This document shows positions 24,026-47,053 of a stretch of DNA of 47,053 nt, one piece after another. Source of the stretch: Bacilli bacterium (lineage in GTDB: Bacteria > Bacillota_I > Bacilli_A > RFN20 > CAG-826); the NCBI GenBank assembly GCA_017940265.1, contig JAGAYY010000029.1:1-47053 (forward strand), read 5' to 3'. The position numbers and the translations under genes are program-made. How positions within the stretch are numbered: position 1 is the stretch's first letter; each line of letters starts with the position of its first letter. The notes under the pieces were generated by a model that saw only the letters and a list, made by a program, of their open reading frames with translations, made no database searches and was not told the origin of the DNA.

Positions 24026-25753
24026 TTATTTGTACTGTGAAGAATATAAGGAATAATAGAATCCTTGCTTCTTCATTAATTCTTGATGGTTGCCTGTTTC
24101 TACAATTGCACCATCTTTCATAACAATGATGATATCCGCTTTTTCAATTGTTGATAATCTATGAGCGATAACAATTGATGTTTTATCTTTCATCATATAG
24201 TCAAAAGCATCAGTAATAAGTTTTTCACTACGAGTGTCGATATTAGATGTGGCTTCGTCTAGAATCACTAATTCTGGATTTAATAACATGATTCTAGCAA
24301 TTGCTATCATTTGTCTTTGACCTTCGGATAAGCCATGTTTATTACTAACCCTAGTTAAATAGCCATTAGGTAAAGTATTAATAAAGATATCAGCATGAGC
24401 TTTCTTAGCCGCTTCTTTTACTTCTTCTTCACTAGCGGTTTTCTTATAGTAACGGATGTTATCTAAGATTGTGCCAGAGAAGATCCATGTATCTTGAAGA
24501 ACCATGCCAACATGGCTTCTTAAGGATTCCTTTTTAATATCTAAATAGGATTTATTATTGATAGAGATTAGACCACTATTAGGATCATAGAAACGCATCA
24601 GTAAATTAATGAGTGTTGTCTTACCTGCACCTGTTGGTCCAACGATGGCTACTTTCTGTCCTTTTTTGATTTCTAAATTGAAGTTTTCAATGAGTTTTCT
24701 ACTAGGCTCATAGCTGAAAGACATGTCTTTAAATTCAATGCTATCGATGCTATCAATTGAGGCTTCTCCTTCATTGATATCATCTTCAATATTTAAGAAG
24801 TTATTTATTCTTCTAAGTGACGCTTTTGCGTTTTCAAATTCGGAGACAACATTTGATATTTCATTGAATGGTTTTGAGTACTGATTTGTGTATGATAAGA
24901 AGCTTGATAATCGACCAATAGACATGACTGCGAACACGGTAATTAAGTCATCGTTAAAGCCAAGCATGATGATGCCTGCGACACCGATAATGACGTAAAT
25001 AATGTTATTAACTAATCTAGTGCTTGGATTAACCCAAGAAGCTGAAAACTGCGCAATTCTCCCTTCTTTTTTCAGTTTTTCATTAATTTGATTAAACTGG
25101 CGAATTGCAGAGTTTTCATAGTTTAAAGACTGTACAATATCGATGTTATTGAGCGTTTCTAAGGATGATGCGGACAGGTTTGCCTGTAATTCTGATTGCT
25201 TCTTATAGTGCTTATAAGAGAAGCTTGAAACAATCTTTGCCATGAGCATACTTAATGGTGTTAACACAATGACACCAAGGGCTAAAATCCAGTTCACCAT
25301 CACCATCATAATAATAGTAATAATGACAGTGAAAATACCTTGCATCAAAGTCTTAAATACGGCGAATAAACCAGAGGCAAAATTCTCCATATCTCTAATT
25401 TCAAGTTGGACAATATCGCCACGTCTTTTATTATCAAAATCCTTAAGCGGCATAGCGTTAATTTTTTGATAAACATCATCTCTTGCTTTCTTAATTACCT
25501 TTTGTGAAACATTCATCACAATGACTTCAAATAAATAGGCAAAAACAATACCAATAATGATTAGACCTAACGCTACGAATACATAGATATTAAATAGTTG
25601 ATGGTCATTATCTTTAGAGGCATCTAGGGCTCTACCTAATAAGAAAGGTTGAGCGATTTGAGCGATAACAAAGAGTAATGAAAAGACTAAAGCAATCAAG
25701 AGTGATTTACGCATTGGCTTTAAATAACTGAAAAGTCTTTGTTTGCTAGTCAT
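24026..25753 (-). CDS. ABC exporter half-transporter, consensus NBD
   Basis: A permease-ATPase fusion with six membrane segments (~residues 20-310) followed by a nucleotide-binding domain: Walker A VGPTGAGKTTLINLL, signature LSEGQRQMIAIAR (Glu for the second Gly of LSGGQ), Walker B ELVILDEATSNID and the switch His in IVIAHRLST. The ATG at 25753 is used because AAAGGA precedes it; it begins one base after the stop of the partner gene. With the 607-codon frame upstream it forms a heterodimeric exporter. Substrate unknown; drugs, peptides or lipids are typical. Confidence 0.9.
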   Translation of the reverse strand: MTSKQRLFSYLKPMRKSLLIALVFSLLFVIAQIAQPFLLGRALDASKDNDHQLFNIYVFVALGLIIIGIVFAYLFEVIVMNVSQKVIKKARDDVYQKINAMPLKDFDNKRRGDIVQLEIRDMENFASGLFAVFKTLMQGIFTVIITIIMMVMVNWILALGVIVLTPLSMLMAKIVSSFSYKHYKKQSELQANLSASSLETLNNIDIVQSLNYENSAIRQFNQINEKLKKEGRIAQFSASWVNPSTRLVNNIIYVIIGVAGIIMLGFNDDLITVFAVMSIGRLSSFLSYTNQYSKPFNEISNVVSEFENAKASLRRINNFLNIEDDINEGEASIDSIDSIEFKDMSFSYEPSRKLIENFNLEIKKGQKVAIVGPTGAGKTTLINLLMRFYDPNSGLISINNKSYLDIKKESLRSHVGMVLQDTWIFSGTILDNIRYYKKTASEEEVKEAAKKAHADIFINTLPNGYLTRVSNKHGLSEGQRQMIAIARIMLLNPELVILDEATSNIDTRSEKLITDAFDYMMKDKTSIVIAHRLSTIEKADIIIVMKDGAIVETGNHQELMKKQGFYYSLYSSQYK

Positions 25754-25754
25754 C

Positions 25755-27551
25755 TTATTCCTTTCTAATTTGGGTTTCATAGATTTCTCTATAGATTGGA
25801 CAGTTCTTTAATAAGTCAGCATGTTTACCTTGGCCAACGACTTGTCCACCTTCTAACACTAAAATGTAGTCAGCGTGCTGAATAGTAGACACTCTTTGAG
25901 ACACGATGACTTTAGTCATATCTTTAAAACTATTGATAGTTTCTCTAATACGTTTATCCGTTAATAAATCTAAAGCGGAGGTAGAATCATCTAGAATTAA
26001 GATATTTGGCTTACGAATGAGCGCTCGAGCGATACAAAGTCTTTGTCTTTGACCACCTGAGAAGTTAAGTCCACCTTCGTTTACTTCATGATTAATGCCG
26101 TCTTCGTATTTACTAACAAATTCATATGCTTGTGCTAGTTTTAAAGCTTCAATGATATCTTCATCACTAGCGGTAGGATTGCTCATTAAGAAATTTGATT
26201 TAATTGTGCCTTTAAATAAGGAACTTTTTTGATTAACTAAACCAATATCATTTCTTAAATCACTTAAGTTATAGTCTTTTAAAGATACGCCTTGATATAA
26301 GACATCACCTTTAGAGGCATCATAGAATCTTTCAATTAAATTAATGACTGTTGATTTACCACTACCGGTACCACCAATAACACCAAAAGTCTCACCTTTT
26401 CTAATTTGGAAATCTAAATCATTTAAGAAATAATTTTCATCATCTGTAAATGAGAAACTAACATGATCAAATCTAATTAGAGGAGCCTTATTATCAGTGA
26501 CGTATTGCTTATTTTCATTAATTATTGATGGATTAATAGAAAGAACGCTATCGATTCTTTTAGAAGAGACATGAGCCTTAACAATCTCAATAATTACTTG
26601 TGAGAATTGGACCACTACAAAGAAGATTTGTGATAAGTAAGCCATCTCTGCGATGATGGTTGAAGCCACTTGTGTATTAGCGGCACTAAATAGACTATTT
26701 TGTAAGAGCAAGATAATAACAATTAAGACAATTGATGTAATCGCAAATGTTAAAGGATTAATTAATGAGTTAATGCGATTAACTTTAATAGCCTTATCTT
26801 GATAGGCATTTGTTTTAATAGCGAATTCATTATTTTCTCTATCTTGTTGGTTAGAAGCTCTGACCACTCTTGCGCCATCTGTGGTTTCACTTGTTTTATT
26901 ACTTAAATCATCTAAATCGTTTTGGATTTCAACATAACCTTTAGAAGATTTTCTTAAAACAAGGAAGTTCACTAAGAAGATTAAAGGAACAATCGCAGTA
27001 AAGGCTAAACCCACTCTCCAGTCTAAAATAAATGACATCACTAATGAGCCAATTAATATAAATGGAGCGCGTATTACTAATCTCACGAATAAAAGAACTC
27101 CATGTTGTAATTGATAAGTATCACTGTTCATAACAGTTAAGATCTTAGAATTACTAACTTGCTCTCTTTCCTTTTTAGAGAGTTTAAGCATCTTATCAAA
27201 TAATGATTCTCTAACTTCAGTACCTACCGCCACAGATGCAACAGCGGCAATATATTGACTAATCATGGTTAAGCCAAAGCCCACGATACCCATGATTAGA
27301 ATAATTAATCCACCCACTAAAGCATCGCTCATAGAGCTGGAGGAATGATTAAATATTTTAATAAAAGATGCTACTCCTGCGGAGATCTGATTAGGGATAT
27401 TTTCAGGACTACCATATTGATTTAAATCAATAATGGCTTTCATAAATAAAGGTATTAATAAATCAAATATTGCTTCAATGATTTTAATAAATGGGCCAAG
27501 AGCAATACTGAAGATGTTATGTTTATATGAATCAGATACTTTTTTAATCAT
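25755..27551 (-). CDS. ABC exporter half-transporter, degenerate NBD
   Basis: Partner of the downstream half-transporter. Six membrane segments, Walker A IGGTGSGKSTVINLI, signature FSGGQRQRLCIARAL, and Walker B NILILDDSTSALD, in which Asp replaces the catalytic Glu. Such heterodimers have one weak ATP site, built from this Walker B and the partner's LSEGQ; the residues seen here fit that model exactly. I choose the ATG at 27551, seven bases after a TATTAT box, over the TTG at 27578. It diverges from the Xre-kinase-cysteine synthase gene. Confidence 0.88.
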   Translation of the reverse strand: MIKKVSDSYKHNIFSIALGPFIKIIEAIFDLLIPLFMKAIIDLNQYGSPENIPNQISAGVASFIKIFNHSSSSMSDALVGGLIILIMGIVGFGLTMISQYIAAVASVAVGTEVRESLFDKMLKLSKKEREQVSNSKILTVMNSDTYQLQHGVLLFVRLVIRAPFILIGSLVMSFILDWRVGLAFTAIVPLIFLVNFLVLRKSSKGYVEIQNDLDDLSNKTSETTDGARVVRASNQQDRENNEFAIKTNAYQDKAIKVNRINSLINPLTFAITSIVLIVIILLLQNSLFSAANTQVASTIIAEMAYLSQIFFVVVQFSQVIIEIVKAHVSSKRIDSVLSINPSIINENKQYVTDNKAPLIRFDHVSFSFTDDENYFLNDLDFQIRKGETFGVIGGTGSGKSTVINLIERFYDASKGDVLYQGVSLKDYNLSDLRNDIGLVNQKSSLFKGTIKSNFLMSNPTASDEDIIEALKLAQAYEFVSKYEDGINHEVNEGGLNFSGGQRQRLCIARALIRKPNILILDDSTSALDLLTDKRIRETINSFKDMTKVIVSQRVSTIQHADYILVLEGGQVVGQGKHADLLKNCPIYREIYETQIRKE

Positions 27552-27558
27552 CTCTACT

Positions 27559-27564
27559 ATAATA
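27559..27564 (-). promoter_or_regulatory. -10 box of the ABC exporter operon
   Basis: TATTAT on the minus strand, seven bases before the chosen ATG. No clear -35 hexamer is visible. With no convincing ribosome site, a leaderless mRNA is plausible. Confidence 0.4.
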
Positions 27565-27614
27565 CCATCTAATAGCAATTATATTGTTATTATTTTGCTC
27601 TATAATCGTAAAAG

Positions 27615-27644
27615 TTGAATGTCATTCACTTTTTGTTTTATAAT
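27615..27644 (+). promoter_or_regulatory. Promoter and palindromic operator of the Xre-PdxK-CysK gene
   Basis: TTGAAT (27615-27620), an 18-base spacer and TATAAT (27639-27644) lie six bases before the ATG at 27651. TGAATG-T-CATTCA (27616-27628) is a perfect palindrome over the -35 box, a natural operator for the HTH domain encoded just downstream. No ribosome site is present, so the mRNA is probably leaderless. Confidence 0.72.
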
Positions 27645-27650
27645 AGCGTC

Positions 27651-29654
27651 ATGAAATTTGGAATTTTAGTTAAAAAAGTTAGACAAAGATATAGACTCAC
27701 ACAAAAAGAACTCGCGGACGCTCTTGGCTATTCTCATAAGTCTATGATCAGCAAAATTGAAAAGGGCGAAACAGAAATGAGCTATGATAAAGCCGTTCTT
27801 CTCGTAGAGAAGTTTGGTTTAAATGCTAATGAATTATTCTTCGAAATTAATGAAAAACCTAGTTTAGAAGGTTGTGATAAGAAAGTTGTGACCATTCAAG
27901 ATATTTCTTGCTATGGTCAATGCTCTATTACAGTGGCACTCCCTATCTTAAGTGCCTGTGGTTATGAAACCGCTATTTTACCAACGTCTATTCTTTCTAC
28001 TCATACCGCTGGATTTAATGGTTTTGAGTATAAAGATATGGATGAGGAATTAGATAAGTTCCTCAAACATTGGGATAGAGAAGGTTTAGGATTTGACGCT
28101 ATCTATACTGGCTATTTAGGCAGTGTCTCTTTAGTGGATTTCACTTTAAGGGCCATCAAACAATTAAAGAAAGAAAACTCTTTAGTAATTGTTGATCCTG
28201 CAATGGGTGATAAAGGTAAATTATATCCAGCATTTAATGAAGAATACGCATTAAAAATGCGTGAACTCATCAAAGAAGCGGATATCATCTTACCAAATAT
28301 TACAGAAGCCGCTTTTATGAGTGGTTTCCCATATCAAGATAAATACGATAAAGAATATATCGAGAAGTTACTTAAAGAATTAAGTAAATATACATCTGCA
28401 AAGATTATTCTTACCGATGTTTCATTCCAAAAGAACGCTACTGGTGTCTATATTTATGATAATGGTTATTTCCAATATTATAAGCATCATAAAATCGGTA
28501 ATGGATATCATGGTACAGGCGATATCTTCTCCTCGACATTTGTCGCCTCTTATTTAAAGAACCGTGAATTATTTCTATCCGTTAAAATGGCCGCGGATTA
28601 TGTATATCGATGTATCAACTACACCCAAAGTGATAAGGATCACTGGTATGGTGTAAAGTTTGAACCATTATTAAATGGTTTAGTTAGCAAATTGAATGAT
28701 ATCGAAAGGACAAATAGAAAAATGATCTTAAAACATGTTGACGAAGCAGTCGGTAAGACTCCATTAGTCGAACTTACAAATTACGAACAAAATTTAAAAT
28801 TAAATGCGAGAATTATCGCTAAAGTTGAATACTTTAACCCAGCAGGTTCTGTCAAAGACAGAATCGCTAAAGCGATGATTGATAAAGGTGAAAAAGATGG
28901 CTTAATCAAAAAGGATACAATCCTTATTGAACCAACAAGTGGTAACACTGGTATCGGCTTAGCTATGGTCAGTGCTGCACGTGGCTATCGCTTAATCATC
29001 ACCATGCCTGAAACCATGTCTATTGAAAGAAGAAATCTTTTAAAAGCCTATGGTGCAGAACTCGTCTTAACAGATGGTAAGTTAGGTATGAAAGGCGCTA
29101 TCGCAAAAGCGGAAGAACTACACGCTCAATATCCTAACAGTGTGATTCCAAGCCAATTCACAAACCCTGCTAACCCAAACGCCCACTACTTAACAACAGG
29201 TCCAGAAATCTTTGAAGAATTAAGTGGCCGTGTTGATATCTTTGTCGCTGGTGTTGGTACAGGTGGCACAATCTCTGGTGTTGGTAAATATTTAAAAGAA
29301 CAAAATCCAGAAATTAAGATTGTGGCAGTTGAACCAGAATCTTCACCAGTCTTATCAAAAGGCACACCTGGTCCACACAAGATTCAAGGTATTGGTGCGG
29401 GCTTTATTCCTCAAACACTTAATACTGAAATCTATGATGAAATTATCACAGTTTCAAACGAAGATGCCTTCGCTACAGGTAAGCTATTAGCGAGAAAAGA
29501 AGGCTTACTTGTTGGTATCTCCAGTGGCGCGGCTGTTAAAGCAGCAACCATCCTCGCCCAACGTAAAGAAAATCAAAGCAAAACTATCGTGGTTCTCTTA
29601 CCAGACACTGGTGAAAGATATCTATCCACAGATATGTTCAAAGAAGAAGAATAA
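27651..29654 (+). CDS. Triple fusion: Xre HTH - pyridoxamine kinase - cysteine synthase
   Basis: One uninterrupted frame of 667 residues. Residues ~1-65: Xre HTH ([20 protein letters not shown]). Residues ~75-345: a PdxY/PdxK-type ribokinase fold ([57 protein letters not shown]) with the anion hole and catalytic Asp in [10 protein letters not shown]. Residues ~358-667: O-acetylserine sulfhydrylase with the PLP lysine in [32 protein letters not shown] and GISSGAA. A kinase that makes PLP is thus joined to an enzyme that needs PLP. AAAGGA 11 bases before the Met at 28722 could also give free cysteine synthase. Each domain is firm; their joint role (PLP hand-over, PLP- or cysteine-responsive repression) is inference. 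Confidence 0.92.
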
Positions 29655-30717: not shown

Positions 30718-30775
30718 TAAAAACCCTCCTATTAATGTAATAGGGGGATTTTTTGATTTTTGTCCGAAATATTTT

Positions 30776-33310
30776 TTATTCTCTACTTCTTGTATTATCT
30801 GCGATGTTCCAACTAGCGATGATTCTCATCGCGATTAAATGTGAAACAAGAAGCACCACTAAGATAAATCCAAGGGCCATCAAAGCGGTTGGCCAAGAGA
30901 AGACAAATGGATAAACTTGGCTATTAGATGAGGCAAGCGATAATAAGATATAGATTGATAAAGCACCTGCTGGTAAACCAAACAAAGCGGAGAAGAACAA
31001 TTGACCAACACTTTGTATAGTCCAGAAATTAGATATATCCATAACGGTAAAGCCAATAGCCCTTAGGACTGTTAATTGTCTTTGTTGCTCCATCAAAGCG
31101 TTTTGTGACATGATTGTTAAGATAATAAAGGCCATACCAATAGAGAAGGCCACCATAATGGCAATCATCACATCCATCGCATCAAAGATGTTATGTAAAT
31201 CTTTGGATAATGATGAAGTAAAGACTGTTAATGATTGATTCTTATTTTCTGCGATATAGTGCTGTAAGTCCGCTTCGGTTGTGACATTCATAATATAGCT
31301 AGTGACATAACTAACTTCTAATTTCTCCATCTGCTCTAATGAGAGATAGGCGATTGGATGGAAGTATTGATATGAAATATCACTCACTAAGACACGTTTA
31401 TTATTAATTGATATATAATCACCTTTTTTAACATTAAGTTCGTTAGCGGTTGTTTTTGGTAGGATTATACCGTTTTCTGGGACATATAACTTACCATGTC
31501 CATTAGAATTAGGAATATGGATTAATTTATCAACACTGCTATTGGAAACATCGACCGCGAGACATTCAACATAAACGTTATGATCAGTGTTATCGACTTT
31601 TAAGTAGGTATAGTAGCAGTTAACAAAATCTTCAATAAACCCACTACCGTCTGCCTTAACTTTGCCGCCCTCATAGAAACTAAGGACATCTTCTTTAGTT
31701 TCAGCTGCGGTTAAGTATACTTGTGCATCATAGTTAAGTCTTCTATCGACAGATTGACCCACCAATTCGTTTTTAGAAACACCAAATAATGTCGCTAAAA
31801 GAATCATTACTAATGAAGCGAAGATAGAGAAAGTAGAAACAAAGAATCTTCTTGGATTTTGTAAGATTGAGTTAGTGCCTAGCTTAATATTCATCGGCGC
31901 TTTATCAATGAATCTTTCAACAGGAGCGGGTAATCTCTTTCTTTTTGCTTCATTAGAGATAGTTGCATCTTTTGGCGTAATCTTAAAGATTCTTTGAGTG
32001 GATATTAATGTCGTGATAATAGTGAAGATAATTAATAATATCGCAGCGGCACCCACTACCCAAGGATTAAGGAAGGAATTAATTGTGGGAATAGAATATG
32101 TATTCTTCATAATTCCTGATAGGAAGATATTTAATGCAAAGCCCGCAGGGGCGCCTATTACAACTGAGGCTATTGCCATTAAAACAGTATAGATAAGGAA
32201 TAGCTTAATAATGTCCCATTTACCCACACCGACGGAAACAAATATACCTATTTGAGGCGTCATAGCCTTAATAATTTGGTTAATAAATAAACCAACGACA
32301 ATCATCGCTACTGTATAAAAGAAGACTGGTAAGAATACTGCAGCGATTTGTACTTGAGCCAAAGCTCGGTCCATATAGGCAATATGTGGCATATATGTTC
32401 TTACTGTTGTGCCTTTAACTTCCATACCTTTCTTTTCAAGCCTCGCGGTAATTCTATCAACAGCGTCATCTAACTTAACGCCTTCTTTATTCTTTACTAA
32501 TACTTGGTTAGACCAGTGGCTCACAAAGTGATCATCCGCTACAGCTTCAACAAGATCTGGAATTGTTATACCAGTTACAGCAATCGCTTTTTCATAATAT
32601 TCTTTATAGATTGTGTCGCCACTTTCAATGCGGTCATGAACCATCTGGCCTAATACTCTTAGACCCTTAGATAATTCAACTTCACTCGCATAGATATAAC
32701 CAAAGTCATGGTTATCAGACCAAATATAGTTATTCGCTCTTGGATAAATACCTTCAGGGGTTTCTACAATCTCAGCGATATAGAAATTAGCGTACATATT
32801 TAAGAAGCCTAGTTCCACAACATCGCCTAGTTTAAAGTTGTTATTTTTAGCGAACTTTCGACAAACTGAAATATTAGCGGCGACATCGACTTCTTTACCA
32901 CGGTAATTAATAGCCTTAGTAACATATGGTGTGCTTTCTAAAACATATCTCTTAAATATTTGATTCTTAAATTCACTCTTTGGATCATCATCATAAGAGA
33001 AGACTCTTGCCACAAGTGTTCTATTTGGTTTTCTAAGATAACAGTCTACGGTTAATCTTGAATCATATTTATCAATGACATCCGTTAATTCATCTAAACA
33101 ATCAAGGTTTTCTCTTCTAACAAACTGTGTGGACACTAGTTCATCCATATCTTGATATTCGTTAACATAGTTAATGTAATGATTTTTAGTGTTCACTATG
33201 GATGAACCAAAGCAGCACAAAAGAGCGACAGAAAGCATGCTTACGAAAACCATAGAAAAGAACAATCCAAGGAATCGTTTAAAGAATGGTTTAAGCATGG
33301 TTTTAATCAT
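30776..33310 (-). CDS. FtsX/MacB-like ABC transporter permease
   Basis: 844 residues from the ATG at 33310. One membrane segment at ~8-30, a large external domain, three segments at ~320-440, a fourth at ~490-510 and a second external domain, then three segments at the C-terminus (VMIAIMVAFSIGMAFIILTI, LFGLPAGALSIYILLSLA, LMALGFILVVLLVSHLIA). This duplicated FtsX layout is typical of LolCE-, MacB- and BceB-like permeases that work on the envelope rather than importing solutes. The start shares bases with the ATPase stop in TAATG. It is last in an operon headed by STAS-kinase and PP2C phosphatase genes. Confidence 0.85.
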   Translation of the reverse strand: MIKTMLKPFFKRFLGLFFSMVFVSMLSVALLCCFGSSIVNTKNHYINYVNEYQDMDELVSTQFVRRENLDCLDELTDVIDKYDSRLTVDCYLRKPNRTLVARVFSYDDDPKSEFKNQIFKRYVLESTPYVTKAINYRGKEVDVAANISVCRKFAKNNNFKLGDVVELGFLNMYANFYIAEIVETPEGIYPRANNYIWSDNHDFGYIYASEVELSKGLRVLGQMVHDRIESGDTIYKEYYEKAIAVTGITIPDLVEAVADDHFVSHWSNQVLVKNKEGVKLDDAVDRITARLEKKGMEVKGTTVRTYMPHIAYMDRALAQVQIAAVFLPVFFYTVAMIVVGLFINQIIKAMTPQIGIFVSVGVGKWDIIKLFLIYTVLMAIASVVIGAPAGFALNIFLSGIMKNTYSIPTINSFLNPWVVGAAAILLIIFTIITTLISTQRIFKITPKDATISNEAKRKRLPAPVERFIDKAPMNIKLGTNSILQNPRRFFVSTFSIFASLVMILLATLFGVSKNELVGQSVDRRLNYDAQVYLTAAETKEDVLSFYEGGKVKADGSGFIEDFVNCYYTYLKVDNTDHNVYVECLAVDVSNSSVDKLIHIPNSNGHGKLYVPENGIILPKTTANELNVKKGDYISINNKRVLVSDISYQYFHPIAYLSLEQMEKLEVSYVTSYIMNVTTEADLQHYIAENKNQSLTVFTSSLSKDLHNIFDAMDVMIAIMVAFSIGMAFIILTIMSQNALMEQQRQLTVLRAIGFTVMDISNFWTIQSVGQLFFSALFGLPAGALSIYILLSLASSNSQVYPFVFSWPTALMALGFILVVLLVSHLIAMRIIASWNIADNTRSRE

Positions 33311-34017
33311 TACCACTCAACCTCTTCTGCTTTAACAATATGTGGATTAATTTTATCGGAGACGACTTTACCGTTTTTCATTGTGACAATACGGTTAGCC
33401 ATCTGGGCTATTTCTTTAGTGTGTGTGACTAAAACAATAGTCTTACCTTCATTATGGATATCTTCTAATAACTTTAAGACCGCTTTACCTGAAACATCAT
33501 CTAAAGCGCCTGTTGGTTCATCACATAAAAGAATATTACTTTCTTTGTTTAACGCTCTAGCGATGGCCACTCTTTGTTGTTGACCACCTGATAGTTGCCT
33601 TGGGAATTTATCTTTCTTCTCTAATAAGCCCACTCTATCAAGGAGTTTAAGAGCTCTTTCTTTATTTCTACTACCTGGGGATAATGTGACGTTTTGATAA
33701 ACAGTAACATCATTAATTAAATTAAAGAATTGGTAGACGAAACCAACTTCATTACGACGATATAAAGTAAGACCCTTGTCGTTTAATTTAACAATATCAC
33801 GGTTGTTAACAATGATTTCACCACTGTCGACTTTGTCGATTGCCCCAATCATGTTCAAAAGAGTGGATTTACCACTACCAGAGCCACCGAGGATTACCAA
33901 GAAGTCATGTTCATAGACTGTGACAGACACATCGTTAAGCGCGTACATCAGACCTTCGCCTTCACCATATGTCTTAACAAGGTTTTTCGCCTCAATAACT
34001 GGGATGCGCTCACTCAT
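33310..34017 (-). CDS. LolD/MacB-type ABC ATPase
   Basis: 235 residues with Walker A LGGSGSGKSTLLNMIG, Q-loop VYQFFNLI, signature LSGGQQQRVAIARALN, Walker B LLCDEPTGALD and the H-loop LVTHTKE, all canonical. The preference for an FtsX-like partner matches the next gene, whose start overlaps its stop. It begins 15 bases after the PP2C phosphatase gene, so transporter and signalling proteins share a transcript. Confidence 0.92.
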   Translation of the reverse strand: MSERIPVIEAKNLVKTYGEGEGLMYALNDVSVTVYEHDFLVILGGSGSGKSTLLNMIGAIDKVDSGEIIVNNRDIVKLNDKGLTLYRRNEVGFVYQFFNLINDVTVYQNVTLSPGSRNKERALKLLDRVGLLEKKDKFPRQLSGGQQQRVAIARALNKESNILLCDEPTGALDDVSGKAVLKLLEDIHNEGKTIVLVTHTKEIAQMANRIVTMKNGKVVSDKINPHIVKAEEVEW

Positions 34018-34032
34018 AACTATTACCTCTAC

Positions 34033-35889
34033 TTAGAACTTCTTTTTCAAAGTGACAATGTTTTTATGATTGATATAGTCATAGGCATATTCACTCATTA
34101 GGTTCTTAACAATTAATATACCTAAGCCACCTTCCGCTCGTTTAGCGTAGTTACCATCAATTGGTTTATTATTCACCGTAAATGGATCAAACTTCTCCGC
34201 TCTATCGATAAGAGTCATAACAAATTCATTTTCATCTTCGTTATAAAGTAATCTAATAAAGATATCATCAGTGTATTCAGCGTAGCCGTATTTAATGATG
34301 TTAGATAGCATTTCATCAGCGACGACACATAATTTACCAATAAAGCCTTCTTCAATCTTCATTTCATGAGCGAAGTCTTCAATTAAACCAATCATCTTTG
34401 GAAGGCTTTCTTTTTCCCCTCTAAAGGTTTCTTCTTTATATAAATATCTATCACCATGATATTTCATCGTGATATAGGTCATATCATCCGCTTGATCTTC
34501 ACCATCAACGAATCTTTCAATATCGTCTTTTAAGGAGTGATGTAATTCTAATAAGCAAGAATATTTCTTTTGGTTAAAAACAGCGATTAAACGGTCTTCC
34601 CCATAGAATAGGCCCTTAGAGTTACGAGCTTCAGTAATACCATCGGTATAAAGAGTTAAAGTATCACCATTTTTAAGCTGATACGTTTCATTAGTGACAA
34701 ATACATCTTTAAGAGGGCCTAAAACAAAGCCTGGTTTACATTTTAAGTAATGATAGTCTTGTTTTTGACCAACGATTGGAGGATTATGTCCCGCATTAGC
34801 GAAGTTCATTTCACCAGTTTTAGTGTTAATCACCGCATAGAAGCAAGTGACAAACATATTAGAGTCATTACCTTTATTAATGATTCTATTCACTTCTTTT
34901 AAGACTTCTTCAGGTGTTTTATGAAGAGAAACACAGTTTCTAAAGCAAGTAATTGTTTTCATCATAAACATGGCGGCTGGGATACCTTTACCAGAGACGT
35001 CAGCGATAACTAACGCGACATGTTCATTATCTAGCAAGAAATAGTCATAGAAGTCACCACCAACACTCTTCGCAGCTTTAAGTTCCGCTTGGATTTCAAT
35101 ATCTTCACTAGTGACAAACTCCGTCGGTAATGTCGCCATTTGAATCTCTTTAGCGACGTCTAATTCAGTTCTTGTCTTTTCTTGTTCACTATTAACACTA
35201 ATCTCTTGTCTTAATAATTTATAAGTTCTGATATTTAAGGAGTTAGAAACAACAAATATTAACGCTAAGATTAATGCTCTTGGTAAGAAGGTAAATGTAA
35301 AAGCTTGTAAGTATCTATTTTGACCCGCTAAAAGTTGTTCATGTAATAAGTCAAAGCGTTCTTTAACACCAAAGACTTCCACTGCGTCATTATTAACGAC
35401 TTCTTTGATGCCTAAGATATTCGCATCATATTCACCAACGAATAAGGAGAAGTATAAGCAAATAAGCATTAAACCTGCGATGACACCAAAGGTGATTCTA
35501 CCTAACTTAGGATTATAGTAATGGTTAGTCATAACGATACATAAGGCCCAACCAATAAATGCATTTCTTGGTAAGATAACATTAAGTACTGCGATAACCA
35601 TGACGAAAGAGAAGACCACGAAGAATTTATAGTTTGGCTTCTTTAAATTATTTTTGAATTTAAATACGTATAGTAAAGGTGTTAAAAGGATTACAACGCT
35701 TATTGGGAAAGCGATGTTGATTAAAGGCATGATTTTAGGCGAAGCATAGAAAGCCCCTGTCATATAGCAAATCCAAATGCCTAAAAGTAAAGCCGCACCA
35801 AAAGCGTTAGCGATACTCATCTGTTTGTTCGCGTCCGCTTCGTTTTCATAATATGCTTCTAAATATTTATTTCTTTCAAACTCAGTCAT
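34033..35889 (-). CDS. Membrane SpoIIE-type PP2C phosphatase with HATPase domain
   Basis: 618 residues. The first ~235 hold about six membrane segments; a linker (LDVAKEIQMATLPTEF) leads to a SpoIIE/RsbU phosphatase domain with GGDFYDYF, IADVSGKGIPAAMFM, NAGHNPPIV and LYTDGITEAR, keeping the metal-binding Asp residues. The C-terminal ~130 residues are an RsbW-like HATPase (CVVADEMLSNIIKYGY, GGLGILIVKNLMS). Phosphatase and kinase-like halves of a partner switch are thus joined. The STAS-kinase gene ends two bases before this start and is the likely substrate source. The external signal is unknown. Confidence 0.9.
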   Translation of the reverse strand: MTEFERNKYLEAYYENEADANKQMSIANAFGAALLLGIWICYMTGAFYASPKIMPLINIAFPISVVILLTPLLYVFKFKNNLKKPNYKFFVVFSFVMVIAVLNVILPRNAFIGWALCIVMTNHYYNPKLGRITFGVIAGLMLICLYFSLFVGEYDANILGIKEVVNNDAVEVFGVKERFDLLHEQLLAGQNRYLQAFTFTFLPRALILALIFVVSNSLNIRTYKLLRQEISVNSEQEKTRTELDVAKEIQMATLPTEFVTSEDIEIQAELKAAKSVGGDFYDYFLLDNEHVALVIADVSGKGIPAAMFMMKTITCFRNCVSLHKTPEEVLKEVNRIINKGNDSNMFVTCFYAVINTKTGEMNFANAGHNPPIVGQKQDYHYLKCKPGFVLGPLKDVFVTNETYQLKNGDTLTLYTDGITEARNSKGLFYGEDRLIAVFNQKKYSCLLELHHSLKDDIERFVDGEDQADDMTYITMKYHGDRYLYKEETFRGEKESLPKMIGLIEDFAHEMKIEEGFIGKLCVVADEMLSNIIKYGYAEYTDDIFIRLLYNEDENEFVMTLIDRAEKFDPFTVNNKPIDGNYAKRAEGGLGILIVKNLMSEYAYDYINHKNIVTLKKKF

Positions 35890-35891
35890 AA

Positions 35892-37046
35892 TTAGATACC
35901 TATATCAATGTCGTTATATTTGTCTAATAAAGCAATTAATCTTTCCTTACAGCCATTTAATCTCTTTTGATTATCTTTCTGATTAGTTAATGTCCACCAC
36001 ACCATATGAGCGTAGCAAACTAAAGCAATCTTATCTTTGATAACTTCATCTTCTTTACCAAAGTATAAACGAACAATATCATCATAAAGTTTGACGCAGT
36101 ATTCCGCTTTCATACCGAAGAATTGTTCACAGTTACCTGGAGCGTCTTCTTCAAAAGCGACATATGGGCAGCGTAAGTTCGCTAATTCAAATATTGGATG
36201 ACCAACGGATAAGGTATCCATATCAATTAATAAGAAGTCTTCCCCTTGGACCATGATGTTCTTAAAGTGACAATCCCCATGGACAAAAGTACTTCTTTCA
36301 GGAACACTTTTCATTAAGCCTAATAATTTTTCATAATGGGCTTCATCAAGAAGATGCTTAATAGCGTCAACTTTTTCAATAAAGAATTTCTTAATAGAAG
36401 GCACTGAAGGATCAAAGCATTCAGTGGTATTAATCTTCTTTAATAAGTCGACATATTTATTTAATAATTCATCATATTTTTCTGGATATTTAATAAAGGC
36501 ATTTTTAAGAGACATACAGTCAAGCATTTCAAAACGTACGCCTAATTTATTCTTAACTTTAACGATATCAAAAGATATCGCTGTAGGAATACCTAAGACA
36601 AACGCTTGTTTAGCGAGTTTCAATTCCCTTTCAATTTGTTTTTCATCACTAGTTCTATTAAAGACCTTAATGATGGTGTCTTTATCAATACGGTAAACTG
36701 TGGAGAAGAAACCTTCACCAATGATTTCCGCACCTTCAACAGACATTTCTCTCATGGCTTTTTTGACATCCATGATGTTAGTAAAACCAGTCATTTGTAA
36801 AACATCATAAACATCCAAATTAGCGTTTATAACATGTGAGTCATCGTGTTTTTGTTTAATCTTTAAAATAATACGAAGACCCGCACTGGAGATGTAATGG
36901 AGTTTAGCAAAGTCTAAATTGAGTGTTTGAAATTTAGATGAAGATAAGACTTCATCAACCTCTTTTTCCATCACATCAGCGTTATAGGAGTTTAATTCTC
37001 CTTCAAAAAATAAAGTTAGTAAATTATCAGTAAGTTCAAAACGCAT
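35892..37046 (-). CDS. STAS domain - APH-like kinase fusion
   Basis: Residues ~1-100 are an anti-anti-sigma STAS domain with LHYISSAGLRIILKIK, where Ser is the usual phosphorylation site, and QMTGFTNI. Residues ~105-384 are an aminoglycoside/choline kinase-like fold: Gly loop IIGEGFFSTVYRI, Lys in TIIKVFN, catalytic HGDCHFKNIM and metal-binding LIDMDTLSVGHP. It is the first gene of the operon with the PP2C-HATPase protein and the ABC transporter. A paralogue lies at 39371-40495. The kinase substrate is unknown; the STAS domain suggests control by phosphorylation rather than drug resistance. Confidence 0.88.
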   Translation of the reverse strand: MRFELTDNLLTLFFEGELNSYNADVMEKEVDEVLSSSKFQTLNLDFAKLHYISSAGLRIILKIKQKHDDSHVINANLDVYDVLQMTGFTNIMDVKKAMREMSVEGAEIIGEGFFSTVYRIDKDTIIKVFNRTSDEKQIERELKLAKQAFVLGIPTAISFDIVKVKNKLGVRFEMLDCMSLKNAFIKYPEKYDELLNKYVDLLKKINTTECFDPSVPSIKKFFIEKVDAIKHLLDEAHYEKLLGLMKSVPERSTFVHGDCHFKNIMVQGEDFLLIDMDTLSVGHPIFELANLRCPYVAFEEDAPGNCEQFFGMKAEYCVKLYDDIVRLYFGKEDEVIKDKIALVCYAHMVWWTLTNQKDNQKRLNGCKERLIALLDKYNDIDIGI

Positions 37047-37067
37047 ATATTATCTCCCTTATATATG

Positions 37068-37107
37068 TATGCCTTTGCATATATTATAACGGATAATGCG
37101 TATACGC
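37068..37107 (-). promoter_or_regulatory. Promoter with two palindromes, STAS-kinase operon
   Basis: TATAAT (minus strand, 37083-37088) is flanked by two perfect palindromes: GCGTATACGC (37098-37107) in the spacer and TATGC-N4-GCATA (37068-37081) at the expected start site. AGGGAG lies before the ATG at 37046. No good -35 box is seen, which suits an activated or repressed promoter. Confidence 0.5.
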
Positions 37108-37116
37108 GCTAATTAT

Positions 37117-38329: not shown

Positions 38330-39301
38330 CTAATCCTTAACAACCCAGTGACCGAGTTTTTTGCCACCCACACGACGAACAAGTTTTAATTCCTCTAGAG
38401 ACTTAATAGCGCTTTTAACTGTCCTAACTGAATAATCAATATTAGAAGCAATTTCTTCAATTGTGATTGTTGGATCTCTTCTCATTAGAGCGATAATTCT
38501 ATTTTCACGTGTATCTTCTGCAAGACGTTCACCATATATAATATGAAGATTTCTACTTTTTAGTTCGTTATTTTCACCAAGTAAAAGGTTTCTTAAAAAT
38601 AGCACTAAATAGCTTTTATCTTCAAAAGAACCACTTCTAAAGTCATTATAATTTGCTCTAACTAAAGCATTTCTAAAATACCAAGCGTTATTAGCGAATG
38701 TATCATTAGTAACATTAAATCCTAAAGTACGGAGATATTTGATAACAAATACCGCGATGGTTCTAGTATTGCCTTCTTCAAAAGGATGTATTTGCCATAG
38801 ATTAGCGATAAAGACCGCTAAATGGTCAATTATTTTATTAATTGAAAGGCCTTTATATTTAAACTCTTTTTCAGTTTTAAGATCGTATTGTAAGGTTTCT
38901 TCTAATTCACGATAGTCACCATAGATAACGGTGTCACCATTAAGAACCCACTCACTTTTTGTGAAGTTATATGTTCTTAATTGACCAGGATGATCTAAAT
39001 GGCCTTCGAAAAGATAATGATGGATAGATAGTAACTGCCCAACAGTAAAAGAAAAAGAATCATCAGATAAGAGATCTGCGATACGAGTTGAAACATTATC
39101 AGCCTCTTTTGTTCTACTTTTATCGCCTGGCTTATTCTTATAGTACTTATCAATTCTATCTTTTAATTCATCAAGACTTATTTCACCAGAAATATACTTT
39201 TCGCTTTCTTGCAAAAAGTAGTCTGAGTTTTCAAGATGATCAACATCTTGTAAACCAATACCAGTCTTAATAAGGTACTTGTTACTGTACTTTTTCTTCA
39301 T
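38330..39301 (-). CDS. VbhT-like Fic protein with C-terminal winged helix
   Basis: Fic AMP-transferase of the antitoxin-linked class: IHPFEEGNTRTIAVFVIKYL carries the His, the acidic residue, Gly, Asn and Arg of the active loop. An N-terminal helical cap precedes it. Residues ~265-323 (DPTITIEEIASNIDYSVRTV, then LKLVRRVGGKKLGHW) form a winged helix. The promoter six bases upstream is covered by perfect 13-base tandem repeats, so the protein probably represses itself. Its small VbhA-like partner follows after two bases. Confidence 0.87.
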   Translation of the reverse strand: MKKKYSNKYLIKTGIGLQDVDHLENSDYFLQESEKYISGEISLDELKDRIDKYYKNKPGDKSRTKEADNVSTRIADLLSDDSFSFTVGQLLSIHHYLFEGHLDHPGQLRTYNFTKSEWVLNGDTVIYGDYRELEETLQYDLKTEKEFKYKGLSINKIIDHLAVFIANLWQIHPFEEGNTRTIAVFVIKYLRTLGFNVTNDTFANNAWYFRNALVRANYNDFRSGSFEDKSYLVLFLRNLLLGENNELKSRNLHIIYGERLAEDTRENRIIALMRRDPTITIEEIASNIDYSVRTVKSAIKSLEELKLVRRVGGKKLGHWVVKD

Positions 39302-39370: not shown

Positions 39371-40495
39371 TTAGATTTTCTTGAGTAATTCTCTAATATG
39401 TTCAAGGCACTTTTTCTTATCTTCTTCTGGCATATTGCGTTTTTTAAGATAATGTAAAGCGCGTATACAACCCACTAATCTAGCTTTATCAATAGCGTGT
39501 TGATATTGTTTATCATTTAAATCGCTATAGTATTTTCTGGAGATGTTTTTCCATAAATAATTCGCGGTCTCTAATGAAATACCTAAGAAGTCTTCAATTG
39601 CTTCTCGTCTAATTTCACCAAATTCAAAATATGAGTTACAAACACTAGCGATTTCAAATATTGGATTACCTGTACATAAGGTATCCATATCAATAAGCAT
39701 TAATTGATCGCCTACTAATAATTGATTCTTAAGATGGAAGTCACCATGAATTAATGTTTTAGCGTCAGGAATATCTTCAATAAACTTTTTAAGCTTTAAA
39801 TATTCTTCATCACTTAAAAAGATTCTAATATTATCGACATATTTAAGGTGACTGGCTTTCATATCTGGTAATGATTTATCATTACAAACAGTGCTATGAA
39901 TTTTCTTTAAAGTAGCGACTGCTTTATCACAGAAGTCATCTAAGTTCTTTTGACTTTCTTTAACATAGTTAACACACGACTCTGCATTTAATAATTCAAA
40001 GACTGTACCATATTGGTCACCGACTTTAACAGTGTCTAACGCAATCGCGGTAGGTAAGCCTAATACGAAAGCCTTTTTAGATAATTCTCTTTCTCTATTG
40101 ATATCCACCATTGAGGTGCCTGGTTCATAGACCTTAACAATGGTATCCGGAGCGGTAGAATATACGGTACCGTGTGCGCCCTTTCCAATAATTTTGCAGC
40201 CTTCAACTGAAACCTGACGTAAGGCTTTTTCTACGGTGACGATATTAGTAAATCCAGTCATTTCAAAGATGTCATAAACAGCGACACTGGTATTAATAAC
40301 GGATACATTTTCAAATTTCTTTTTAAGGTTTAAAACAACGCGAAGACCCGCACTAGAGATATATTTCATTCCTTGTGCATCTAAGACGATTTCATCATAG
40401 CCATGACCTTCTATTTGTTTAAGAATGTCAGCTTCGACTTCTGCATAATTATCGAAAGATAATGAAGAAGGCAATTGATAAGTAAAGATAACCAT
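39371..40495 (-). CDS. Second STAS - APH-like kinase fusion
   Basis: A paralogue of the gene at 35892-37046. The STAS part has MKYISSAGLRVVLNLK and MTGFTNIVTV; the kinase has IIGKGAHGTVYS, Lys in TIVKVYE, HGDFHLKNQL and LIDMDTLCTGNP. Blocks such as KKAFVLGLPTAIALD are nearly shared. Its start lies 6 bases after the xylanase stop and uses the GAGGGGG at the end of that gene as ribosome site, so the two are one operon. It has no phosphatase gene of its own and may be served by the PP2C protein at 34033-35889. Confidence 0.87.
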   Translation of the reverse strand: MVIFTYQLPSSLSFDNYAEVEADILKQIEGHGYDEIVLDAQGMKYISSAGLRVVLNLKKKFENVSVINTSVAVYDIFEMTGFTNIVTVEKALRQVSVEGCKIIGKGAHGTVYSTAPDTIVKVYEPGTSMVDINRERELSKKAFVLGLPTAIALDTVKVGDQYGTVFELLNAESCVNYVKESQKNLDDFCDKAVATLKKIHSTVCNDKSLPDMKASHLKYVDNIRIFLSDEEYLKLKKFIEDIPDAKTLIHGDFHLKNQLLVGDQLMLIDMDTLCTGNPIFEIASVCNSYFEFGEIRREAIEDFLGISLETANYLWKNISRKYYSDLNDKQYQHAIDKARLVGCIRALHYLKKRNMPEEDKKKCLEHIRELLKKI

Positions 40496-40501
40496 AGAAT
40501 A

Positions 40502-42190
40502 TTAGTCCCCCTCTAATTGTTCTGGTAAATATTCTTCTACTGCTTCTAAGAAGCCATAATAAGCCGGCTTTTTAGCGTAGTTTGCATTAAATAGCAATGG
40601 ATGTTGATTACGTTTCCAAGATAAGTCATCTCTGATACCCCAGAAGACAATTGCATTGATTTCTGTTTTACCACTAGCGTTACTTTCTAACACTCTAGTA
40701 CCTAATCTTTTAAAAGCGTTCTTTTGATTATTTAAATCTGCAGTGGATTCACTGTTAACAGTGATATCTAATTCTGTGATTTGGCATTTAAGACCTTTTT
40801 CTTTAATCATTTCTGCATCTTTTATAACAGCATCTAAACTAAAGTTATTTGTGTCTAAATGACCTTGAATACCAACACCATCAATAAGTTCTTCTGCGAT
40901 TGCGTCTTTTAACAATGTATTAAGAGCGAACTTACAGTTATTTGTGTCATAGTCATAAGCATAATCGTTATAGTAGAGTTCTTGACCTTCCTCTGCATAT
41001 TGTCTAGCAAATTTAAAGGCATAATAGACAAAGTCATCTCCAATTGTTTCATACCAATAGTTAGGATTCATATTGTTATTATCTTTTTTACGAATACCAC
41101 CGTTTTGGACACCTTCGTTAGAGACATCGATTGCATAGACTAAACCAGGCCATCTACTATTGATTGTTTCTAAAGCGGTTTTAATGAAGTTTTCCATACG
41201 GGCCACCATGACACTTTTAGAAACGACCGCGCCATTAGCGTCATAGTTCTTTCTGAAGAACCATTGTGGTGTTTGGTCAAACCACACAAATGTATGGTGT
41301 CTAACACCGATATGGTGCGCTTCAGCGTAGTTATAAATCTTTTCAAATGGAGATGTTCTAATCGCCACTTGTGTTTCATCAGTTTTCGCTAATTCTTGGC
41401 AAGCTGCTTGATCTAAGATTTGTTCTGGCTTGCCTTCGTTTTCTGCGGTGATGGAATTGAAGTTATGTTGAGTAATCTTTCTAAGCTCTGTATTAGCGAG
41501 CATTCTTCCTGACATACAGGTGCCAACTTTGAGATATGGCTCATAAGCTTTATATAAACTTTCATCGTTATAGACATAGTCTGTTTTAACAGTTTCTTCC
41601 CCTAATGTGATGTTGATATTATCGACGAAGAAAGTCGCGGAATCCACGCCATCAGCAATTTGATAATTCAATCGAATAGCGCCTAATGTTTCTAAAGTAT
41701 CAAAGGAAATCATTAATCTGTTCCATGATTGTTCTAGACTACTATCAATTTCTAATAAGTCACTCTTAATGCTATTGTTCATTGAAGATGGGAAAACCTC
41801 TAACTGAAAAGAAGAGATATTACCTTCACTTGGTACATAAACATATAAGGAAATAATGTCACCATTCTTTGCATCATCTTCTACGAAATATGGTTCCTCT
41901 AATAAGTCACTACCGAGGTACATGTTATTTGATTTTTTGACTTCGTATTTTAATGATGAATTATCATAGTTACCAAAATCTTTAACAATTTCACCTTTGC
42001 TATTGGTGTCCGCTAAGCCTAGAGGTAATGAATCTAAATCATAGTTAGTTCTCCATTCCTTAACGGTATCACCGATTTCTATTGGCTTAGGTTCTTCACT
42101 AGTGGTGTTCTTGTTAGAGTTACATGCCACTAGAAAAGAAAGGGATAGTAAAGATACTATGGAGCATAAAAAATATTTCTTATTATTCAT
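40502..42190 (-). CDS. GH10 endo-1,4-beta-xylanase lipoprotein
   Basis: 562 residues. A signal with lipobox FLVAC anchors it outside the membrane. Residues ~40-195 are a strand-rich domain that could bind carbohydrate. The GH10 barrel follows: RHHTFVWFDQTPQWF, acid/base Glu in AIDVSNEGV, YYNDYAYD, VGIQGHLD and nucleophile Glu in CQITELDITV, then IVFWGIRDDLSW. Both catalytic residues are present. It indicates xylan use by this organism. AAAGGAAA precedes the ATG and TATAAT lies at 42217-42222. Confidence 0.9.
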   Translation of the reverse strand: MNNKKYFLCSIVSLLSLSFLVACNSNKNTTSEEPKPIEIGDTVKEWRTNYDLDSLPLGLADTNSKGEIVKDFGNYDNSSLKYEVKKSNNMYLGSDLLEEPYFVEDDAKNGDIISLYVYVPSEGNISSFQLEVFPSSMNNSIKSDLLEIDSSLEQSWNRLMISFDTLETLGAIRLNYQIADGVDSATFFVDNINITLGEETVKTDYVYNDESLYKAYEPYLKVGTCMSGRMLANTELRKITQHNFNSITAENEGKPEQILDQAACQELAKTDETQVAIRTSPFEKIYNYAEAHHIGVRHHTFVWFDQTPQWFFRKNYDANGAVVSKSVMVARMENFIKTALETINSRWPGLVYAIDVSNEGVQNGGIRKKDNNNMNPNYWYETIGDDFVYYAFKFARQYAEEGQELYYNDYAYDYDTNNCKFALNTLLKDAIAEELIDGVGIQGHLDTNNFSLDAVIKDAEMIKEKGLKCQITELDITVNSESTADLNNQKNAFKRLGTRVLESNASGKTEINAIVFWGIRDDLSWKRNQHPLLFNANYAKKPAYYGFLEAVEEYLPEQLEGD

Positions 42191-45653: not shown

Positions 45654-45875
45654 ATGGCAAAAACTCTATACTCAGCATTCTTTAATAAAGAGGATTGGGC
45701 TGTTAAAGAAGTCTATTCCTACTACTCACGCTTAGTGAAGCATGTTTCTTTTGAAATACTCCACGATAATGATCTAGCAGACGATGTCGTTAGCGAAACT
45801 TTTATCAATCTATTAGAAAAAGGAAAAGTTGATAACGATAGTAACTTTGTTGCCTATATGTGCGCTAGTTTATAA
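45654..45875 (+). pseudogene. Truncated ECF-type sigma factor
   Basis: 73 residues matching sigma-70 region 2: a DWAVKEVYSYYSRLVKHVSF opening, then DLADDVVSETFINLL (the core-binding helix with DVVxETF) and FVAYMCAS. It ends at TAA, and regions 3-4 are missing. In the +1 frame a further 38 codons are open (45874-45990, KATASSMHGIYFRVKKKAQK), so a frameshift near 45870 is possible, but that part does not look like region 4. An intact family member would have ~160 residues. AAGGG precedes the ATG. Confidence 0.6.
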
Positions 45876-45949: not shown

Positions 45950-46045
45950 ATGAGTTTGAAAAACGGATTAAAAGAAGCTTGCAGCAATAAAGTAACCGCC
46001 CGTGAACTTACTCGTCGATTGAATTGCCGAGCATTTTGGTCATGA
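45950..46045 (+). pseudogene. Short gene start cut by the tnpB element
   Basis: GGAGG six bases before an ATG opens a frame of 31 codons (MSLKNGLKEACSNKVTAREL) that runs into the 3' end of the tnpB gene on the other strand. It looks like the beginning of a gene after the sigma factor, perhaps its anti-sigma factor, destroyed by insertion. The exact element boundary is not visible. Confidence 0.4.
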
Positions 46046-47053
46046 ATTGATTTATTAAGGTGATCAATTCATTTCCTATTGGGTAGTTCCTACCCGATAT
46101 CCCTACATTACCAGCCCTACCATTCCAATTAACATAATCTTCATTCAAGAACTGGTCTGTGACAGGAATATATTTTTTAGAAGGATTAGATAATCTTATT
46201 TTAGGCATTAAGAAATTATCATTATTATTTTGCCTATAAATCCTCATAATGTTATAAGCACCTACTATATCAGCGTTGAATACGTTATTCCCTTCTTTGA
46301 ATAAGCCTCTATAAACCCTGTTAGCTTTGTTTGCGAATCGTTTGTCAACTAATGGACTATTAGGGGAACAAGAAGATGAATAAGCTTCATTAACTTTAAT
46401 TAATTCAATGCCAGCTAGTTTTAACTTGTAGTCTAGCAACGAATAGATTTTAGAAAAGTTAATTGCCCTGACATTCTGGTTATAACGATGCTTTTCTTTG
46501 TTGTTGACAAATTCATTCTTCGCACTTAGTAAGCCTGATAAATCACCGATTATAACTTTTGAGACATCATGAGATAAGCAATAATCAACAATTGTTCTTG
46601 TGGCTCGATGTAAAGCTAACTTAATCCTTTTATTCTTCTTTTCATATAAACGCTTAATCCTCTTGGTGGTCACCCCTTTCTTATGATGAGGATAGCATTT
46701 ATCAAAAAGCGATTGGTAATAAGCAATCTTTTTAGAGAAATAGTAATTGGTATTTAAGATTGAGTGACCTGAGACAATAAAAGAAGAACCGTTATTGTCA
46801 TAAACTGAAAGCAGGTTTTTAACTCCGATATCAATACTTATATAGTGCTTATTATCTTCGACTTGCTTTTTAATATCTTTTTCATATATCACATAGACTA
46901 TGTATTTATCTTTATCAACGTATGAAAACTCAATTTGTTTAATGCTTTCAAAGTGTCTTTTTAGCTTGATGTAGAAGAAGTTATCATTGATTTGATATTT
47001 ATCATTAAGGTGTTCTTTGAGCTTTTTAGGAATAGAAAAACGAATCTTATCAC
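46008..47053 (-). CDS. tnpB: TnpB nuclease, rearranged-site type, 5' end outside window
   Basis: The frame is open to the window edge; residues upstream of the GTG at 46892 (DKIRFSIPKKLKEHL, then KQIEFSYVDKDKYIVYV) are typical TnpB strands, so the gene is partial. RuvC-I is ISIDIGVKNLL and RuvC-III is FNADIVGAYNIMR. At RuvC-II the usual Glu is Gly (VIIGDLSG), while a Glu appears later in KVNEAYSSSCS, and the zinc finger is replaced by a KANRVYRGLF stretch. This matches the known TnpB group with relocated catalytic Glu. It differs in type from the tnpB at 18969-20132. Confidence 0.88.
   Translation of the reverse strand, partial: DKIRFSIPKKLKEHLNDKYQINDNFFYIKLKRHFESIKQIEFSYVDKDKYIVYVIYEKDIKKQVEDNKHYISIDIGVKNLLSVYDNNGSSFIVSGHSILNTNYYFSKKIAYYQSLFDKCYPHHKKGVTTKRIKRLYEKKNKRIKLALHRATRTIVDYCLSHDVSKVIIGDLSGLLSAKNEFVNNKEKHRYNQNVRAINFSKIYSLLDYKLKLAGIELIKVNEAYSSSCSPNSPLVDKRFANKANRVYRGLFKEGNNVFNADIVGAYNIMRIYRQNNNDNFLMPKIRLSNPSKKYIPVTDQFLNEDYVNWNGRAGNVGISGRNYPIGNELITLINQFMTKMLGNSIDE
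46042..46095 (-). ncRNA. Hairpins of the putative omega RNA scaffold
   Basis: Inside the 3' coding end of tnpB a ten-base stem (46042-46051 with 46063-46072) and a six-base GC-rich stem (46081-46086 with 46090-46095, loop TTC) can form on the transcript. The 3' end of tnpB commonly doubles as the guide RNA scaffold; assigning that role here is by analogy. Confidence 0.5.

Follow-up and report, generated by a model that had tools for sequence, protein, structure and literature searches.

A conserved STAS-APH/SpoIIE gene pair as a candidate sigma-free partner switch, beside an FtsX-type transporter that was acquired late

Partner switches are usually interpreted as controls on sigma factors. 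The Bacillus systems RsbU/RsbV/RsbW and SpoIIE/SpoIIAA/SpoIIAB each combine a PP2C phosphatase, an HATPase kinase and an acceptor serine in a STAS protein, and the same elements recur at the locus described here. In SiaABCD of Pseudomonas aeruginosa, a PP2C phosphatase and a kinase act on an anti-sigma-antagonist-like protein and the output is an enzyme, as we propose below; SiaC acts on the diguanylate cyclase SiaD and no sigma factor is involved (PMC7647112, PMC8457831). SypE of Vibrio fischeri carries a serine kinase and a PP2C-type phosphatase in one protein, again as here, and works on a STAS serine in SypA (PMC3610818, PMC8256260). CapK/CapS resembles our locus in that a GHKL kinase phosphorylates Ser54 of a STAS domain with a fused output domain, with no sigma factor (PMC13373217). 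Finally, in MlaFB a STAS protein regulates an ABC ATPase, and the role of MlaB phosphorylation was left as an open question (PMC7367683). MlaFB is thus the precedent for an initial annotation of the present locus, which proposed that STAS phosphorylation may set the activity of a neighbouring transporter or of the envelope.

The locus lies in a contig of 47,053 nucleotides from a Bacilli bacterium (GCA_017940265.1, JAGAYY010000029.1), referred to here in its entirety as the window. All four open reading frames of positions 30776-37046 lie on the minus strand, and their coordinates agree with the initial annotation. The order it described, a STAS-kinase fusion, a membrane SpoIIE/HATPase protein, a LolD-type ATPase and a double-FtsX permease, is borne out by the open reading frames and by Pfam matches that all exceed the curated cut-offs, and the junction sequences contain the reported 2-base gap, 15-base gap and TAATG overlap. 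The first gene (35892..37046) encodes a 384-residue STAS-APH fusion (Pfam STAS 38.1 bits, APH 45.9 bits), the second (34033..35889) a 618-residue SpoIIE/HATPase membrane protein (SpoIIE 179.9 bits, HATPase_c_2 64.4 bits) and the third (33310..34017) a LolD/MacB-type ABC ATPase of 235 residues (ABC_tran 116.4 bits). The permease (30776..33310), with two FtsX stretches in Pfam, has about 844 residues when counted from the ATG within TAATG; because the junction sequence shows this overlap, translation probably begins at 33310 (ATG) and not at 33316 (GTG). A 70-base leader 5' of the STAS-APH gene (37047..37116, minus strand) has a TATAAT-like element and a Shine-Dalgarno sequence and is presumed to be the operon promoter. 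The first gene does fuse a STAS domain to a kinase domain; its kinase half, however, is of the APH/choline-kinase type and not of the RsbW type, and Pfam places the RsbW-type kinase domain of the locus inside the SpoIIE protein.

The STAS domain spans residues 4-97 of the STAS-APH protein, with a putative phospho-acceptor, Ser54, equated with Ser58 of SpoIIAA by alignment. The APH/choline-kinase-type domain runs from about residue 108 onward and contains K127, an HGDxHxKN motif (256-263) and D275. Across 52 homologues, Ser54, K127, H256, D258, N263 and D275 are invariant. In an AlphaFold2 model of the protein (mean pLDDT 93.7), the STAS part is of the SpoIIAA/RsbV type, and structure comparison matched it with TM1442, SpoIIAA and RsbV (1vc1, Z 15.7, rmsd 1.5 over 96 residues; 1th8, the SpoIIAA fold, Z 15.3, rmsd 1.6 over 97 residues). 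The conserved Ser54 and the predicted SpoIIAA fold together point to a partner-switch STAS domain with its serine at the SpoIIAA position. The APH Pfam match (cut-off 23.2 bits), the HGDxxxxN and DxD motifs and the fold place the kinase part in the APH/choline kinase superfamily, with matches to 3dxq (Z 16.0, rmsd 4.5 over 251 residues) and LicA 4r7b (Z 15.0, rmsd 5.0 over 238 residues). A role of the APH half as an anti-sigma kinase is ruled out by the Pfam and fold matches. We also attempted to read its substrate from the fold and abandoned this, since choline/ethanolamine and aminoglycoside kinases match about equally well, with macrolide kinases almost tied and other kinases found too.

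The window contains a second STAS-APH paralogue of 374 residues (39371..40495, minus strand; open reading frames, Pfam and similarity search), which is absent from the initial annotation. It is 39% identical to the first over about 350 residues, lies 6 bases 3' of a GH10 glycosidase gene and has no adjoining SpoIIE gene. For both paralogues the best NCBIfam match of the kinase half is TIGR02172, at 86.5 and 100.1 bits, far below the curated cut-off of 228.2 bits; unlike the APH-like proteins of that family, both carry an extra STAS domain. As every match fell below its cut-off, naming the kinase family through NCBIfam was rejected.

The SpoIIE protein has about five predicted transmembrane helices (residues 29-214; hydropathy and conservation in a 29-sequence alignment), followed by a SpoIIE/PP2C phosphatase domain (288-477) and an RsbW-like HATPase_c_2 kinase domain (491-616). 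In the same alignment, the metal-binding aspartates expected of a PP2C phosphatase (D279, D297, D416, D468 and D469) are at least 95% conserved, and the N and G boxes of the HATPase (E526, N530, D562, G587, G588 and G590) are conserved as well. Pfam and hydropathy reveal SpoIIE, HATPase and the N-terminal transmembrane region only, with no receiver domain. These are the only SpoIIE and the only HATPase_c_2 domain in the genome assembly, which is 88% complete, a profile search having returned no other HATPase_c_2 protein.

The absence of a sigma gene from the locus, pointed out in the initial annotation, is upheld. The assembly encodes one housekeeping-like sigma factor of 435 residues, ECF-sized ones and one short fragment, and none of SigB or SigF size as judged by open-frame length only; at 88% completeness, a sigma or anti-sigma gene may be missing from it. 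The locus could still be a conventional switch. STAS-APH would then act as anti-anti-sigma factor, and a sigma factor encoded at another site would be bound by the HATPase of the SpoIIE protein or by an anti-sigma factor missing from the assembly. The three domains of a classic partner switch are all there, the STAS domain has the SpoIIAA fold and the acceptor serine, and ECF-sized sigma factors are available in the genome. We nevertheless consider this unlikely: neither a SigB/SigF-sized sigma factor nor a stand-alone HATPase_c_2 protein is found in the 88%-complete assembly, the HATPase kinase is tethered within a membrane protein, and the invariant APH active site would be left unexplained. 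The best reading of STAS-APH/SpoIIE is a sigma-free partner switch, whose output is probably the fused choline-kinase-type enzyme rather than a sigma factor. The initial annotation was right that the locus has no sigma gene; it overlooked the fused APH enzyme as the more economical output and turned instead to the transporter, which fares poorly in that role, as set out below.

A match to the STAS-APH protein is found in 64 of 196 family genomes, part of these matches being stand-alone STAS genes. Of 40 loci drawn from the genomes with a match, 30 have a SpoIIE-HATPase gene no more than 200 bp from STAS-APH, and the gap between the two genes is 2 bases in 11 loci and 1 base in 8. A wider scan of one genome per species (84,980 species) gave at least 545 relatives among the 600 pattern matches listed; in the best 80 of these, nearly all from gut or rumen Firmicutes assemblies and examined in all frames, SpoIIE and/or HATPase is fused or within 3 kb at 63 loci. 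The STAS-APH and SpoIIE-HATPase genes are therefore a conserved two-gene module. Roughly one-fifth to one-quarter of the STAS-APH loci lack a nearby SpoIIE or HATPase gene, and some of them sit at contig ends. In the window's own phylum STAS-APH is rare, being present in 12 of 382 sampled genomes. Nine Clostridia loci of the best 80 encode STAS, APH and HATPase as a single protein. We considered docking of the HATPase on the STAS serine in this three-domain fusion and set it aside because its AlphaFold model is too poor (pTM 0.46) for the domain contacts to be read. In several Clostridia, the HATPase and STAS-APH genes are separated by a gene for an HD-domain protein like the SpoT hydrolase domain.

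In two other genera, STAS-APH is immediately preceded by a stand-alone STAS gene that has the same SSAG acceptor motif. Such an arrangement would fit a circuit in which the APH domain is itself the protein kinase, acting on its own STAS domain or on the stand-alone one, with the output being STAS binding to another target. APH-like folds do include some protein kinases. Since an RsbW-type HATPase is usually there for that job, and the nearest solved folds are mostly small-molecule kinases, we regard this circuit as quite improbable and retain the fused APH-type enzyme as the likelier output.

The initial annotation staked its proposal on the four-gene neighbourhood, and this neighbourhood is not conserved. 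Besides the window, the FtsX permease adjoins the STAS-APH/SpoIIE pair in 1 of the 40 family loci, that of genome G142, whose identity to the window across these genes is about 95-99%. In the wider scan, the FtsX pair occurs at one of the best 80 loci, and this locus also belongs to G142. The permease is present in 3 of 16 genus members and absent from 13. One of the genus members, G097, has a permease 98% identical to that of the window with the same flanking genes, and its contig ends there, so its linkage is uninformative. Twelve other genomes encode a homologous transporter of two genes, the ATPase being 62-88% and the permease about 38-59% identical to those of the window; it lies on a different contig from STAS-APH, some of these contigs being short, or about 18 kb away (G134). 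The proposed link between the STAS switch and the FtsX transporter is thus not sustained: the closest relative without the transporter, G048, retains the pair, most genus members have no permease and in other genera the two are unlinked. Conservation of a STAS gene with its ABC transporter, as in MlaFB, was not observed in the 40 family loci or the best 80 of the wider scan. The ATPase itself scores below the NCBIfam cut-offs of LolD (183.7 against 307.75 bits), MacB (199.2 against 966) and FtsE (182 against 264.85). A two-subunit ABC exporter at 24026-27578 was also considered as a partner. It keeps its position near the locus within the genus and is absent there in other genera; given this and the PALP-type gene intervening at 27615, we attribute its position to general synteny and rejected it.

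Comparison with G048, whose STAS-APH and SpoIIE proteins are 92% and 94% identical to those of the window, locates the insertion. The SpoIIE gene of G048 ends with AAGTTCTAAGT; after it come, in order, TTTTCGGACAAAA, a hairpin, a T run and the neighbouring gene. The window shares the AAGTTCTAAGT ending, but there the ABC gene comes next, and the stretch made up of TTTCGGACAAAA, the CCCCCTATT/AATAGGAGGG hairpin and the T run is found instead 3' of the permease (30718..30775, minus strand); a terminator-like match at 30725-30747, reported on the plus strand, falls within it. As the retained stretch is directly 3' of the SpoIIE gene in G048, it marks the insertion point: the transporter pair entered precisely after the SpoIIE stop codon and ahead of the older terminator-like hairpin. 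Such a position makes co-transcription with the switch likely, and the transporter is probably co-transcribed. GC content gave no foreign-DNA signal for the transporter.

This insertion point and the tight spacing also bear on the possibility that STAS phosphorylation sets the activity of the adjoining LolD/FtsX transporter, as MlaB does for MlaF, since both imply co-transcription. In addition, MlaB associates with the ATPase MlaF, and their binding in pull-downs was lowered by a Thr52Glu substitution at the equivalent STAS site (PMC7367683). However, linkage was observed in the window and G142 only, G097 being uninformative, and homologous transporters in other genomes are located away from the switch. 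Nor does the ATPase show any hint of adaptation to a STAS partner, because it is 80-88% identical to several unlinked homologues. We therefore judge transporter control highly improbable and, on synteny, reject the ABC-FtsX pair as a conserved member of the system. On the sequence comparisons, the transporter appears to be a late, lineage-specific passenger and not a component of the switch.

An association with ABC exporters does recur in the family, through a different type. Sister genera have, 5' of the STAS-APH/SpoIIE pair, a stand-alone STAS gene and an NHLP-type exporter cluster, the latter encoding a C39-peptidase ABC1, an ABC2, an HlyD-like protein and a radical SAM/SPASM protein. Family-wide we found 31 NHLP ABC1 genes, most of them slightly below the model's curated cut-off; comparison of their coordinates with the STAS matches placed a STAS gene within about 5 kb of 27 of the 31, copies that are related and hence not independent events. 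A SpoIIE-HATPase gene is directly next in at least nine NHLP loci without STAS-APH, and in two Clostridia loci (L142 and L145) NHLP exporter genes lie right 3' of STAS-APH. At the same search threshold, the window genome has no NHLP ABC1. A partner switch adjoining an ABC exporter is thus a recurrent theme in the family, via peptide exporters and not via the FtsX pair. The original NHLP paper mentions no STAS, anti-sigma or phosphatase genes in its main text (PMC2887384), and we found no description of NHLP linked with STAS or SpoIIE in the open-access papers covered by our search. It is tempting to speculate that phosphorylation of partner-switch STAS proteins directly gates ABC exporters, although we hold this to be unlikely. 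The switch might then act on NHLP peptide export at the protein level, with STAS-APH as its second output arm. If true, it would answer the question raised by MlaB of whether an ABC transporter is regulated through phosphorylation of its STAS subunit; the STAS and SpoIIE genes beside NHLP exporters offer a concrete place to test such control.

For the window we propose a two-gene, sigma-free partner switch that gates an APH-type kinase, with the transporter as a passenger, a scheme to which we give an even chance. The membrane SpoIIE protein would sense a signal via its N-terminal helices, and the signal would shift the balance between its PP2C phosphatase and HATPase kinase. The HATPase would add, and the PP2C domain remove, a phosphate at STAS Ser54 of the neighbouring STAS-APH protein, whose phosphorylation state would control the attached APH/choline-kinase-type enzyme, which in turn may phosphorylate a small molecule or a protein. 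From domain content we infer the action of one domain on another and the gating of APH, as well as the action of APH on a substrate. One small lineage acquired the LolD/FtsX pair between the SpoIIE gene and its terminator; the pair is probably co-expressed with the switch and, in this scheme, no part of it.

We found no description in the open-access papers covered by our search of a STAS domain joined to an APH-type kinase with a SpoIIE-HATPase partner, and the proposed switch differs from each of its closest counterparts. MlaB is a small conserved transporter subunit, whereas the transporter next to the STAS gene here is not conserved (PMC7367683). CapS delivers its output through a DNA-binding wHTH domain, which controls immune operons, and the accessible part of the report notes no SpoIIE phosphatase gene (PMC13373217). 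Compared with the Bacillus RsbU/RsbV/RsbW and SpoIIE/SpoIIAA/SpoIIAB systems, kinase and phosphatase are fused, the STAS domain is fused to APH and a cognate sigma gene was not found in the 88%-complete assembly. SypE, a response regulator, contains a REC domain, and SypA is a bare STAS domain of unknown target (PMC3610818, PMC8256260); here the sensor sits in the membrane and has no REC domain, and the STAS domain carries an enzyme. Unlike in SiaABCD, kinase and phosphatase reside in one protein, and the enzyme is an APH-type kinase fused to the STAS domain itself. The STAS-APH/SpoIIE module is widespread in uncultured gut Firmicutes and, if the proposed scheme is correct, would show a partner switch gating an enzyme directly.

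Directly 3' of the double-FtsX permease gene, a hairpin (30718-30760) ending in a T run separates the permease from a 124-aa gene. Since the hairpin also contains the AGGAGG ribosome-binding site of the 124-aa gene, terminator and translation control may overlap here. A neighbour conserved in the genus is an unusual gene at 27615-29654, in which an HTH domain is fused to domains of a pyridoxal/PfkB-type kinase and a PLP-dependent enzyme, and a relative of this fusion is found at L041:12436-14472.

The second gene for a STAS domain fused to an APH-type kinase (STAS-APH) starts after a GH10 glycosidase gene and a 6-base gap (the two genes span 39371-42190), and this adjoining gene possibly links it to xylan use. 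Between both STAS-APH genes sits a Fic-domain protein with a winged helix (38330-39301), for which the matching stretch of G048, the closest relative without the FtsX transporter, gave no match. Towards the end of the window, a short sigma-70 region 2 fragment (45714-45863, forward strand; open frame of 76 aa) adjoins a TnpB/OrfB_IS605-like gene (46008-46892).

In other genomes, genes for a stand-alone STAS protein and a SpoIIE-HATPase protein lie 3' of NHLP peptide-export clusters, which comprise radical SAM/SPASM, HlyD-like, C39-ABC1 and ABC2 genes (loci L184, L187-L193, L202, L045, L047, L051, L052, L074 and L075). In genera g23 and g7, stand-alone STAS, STAS-APH and SpoIIE-HATPase follow 3' of the cluster in that order. 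Single Clostridia proteins of approximately 530-555 aa combine STAS, APH kinase and HATPase_c_2 domains (L146, L149, L162, L166, L167, L172, L176, L177 and L178). Several Clostridia also encode, immediately 5' of STAS-APH, a 190-aa HD-domain protein (L155:7406-7987 and L170:2259-2825) that resembles the SpoT hydrolase domain.
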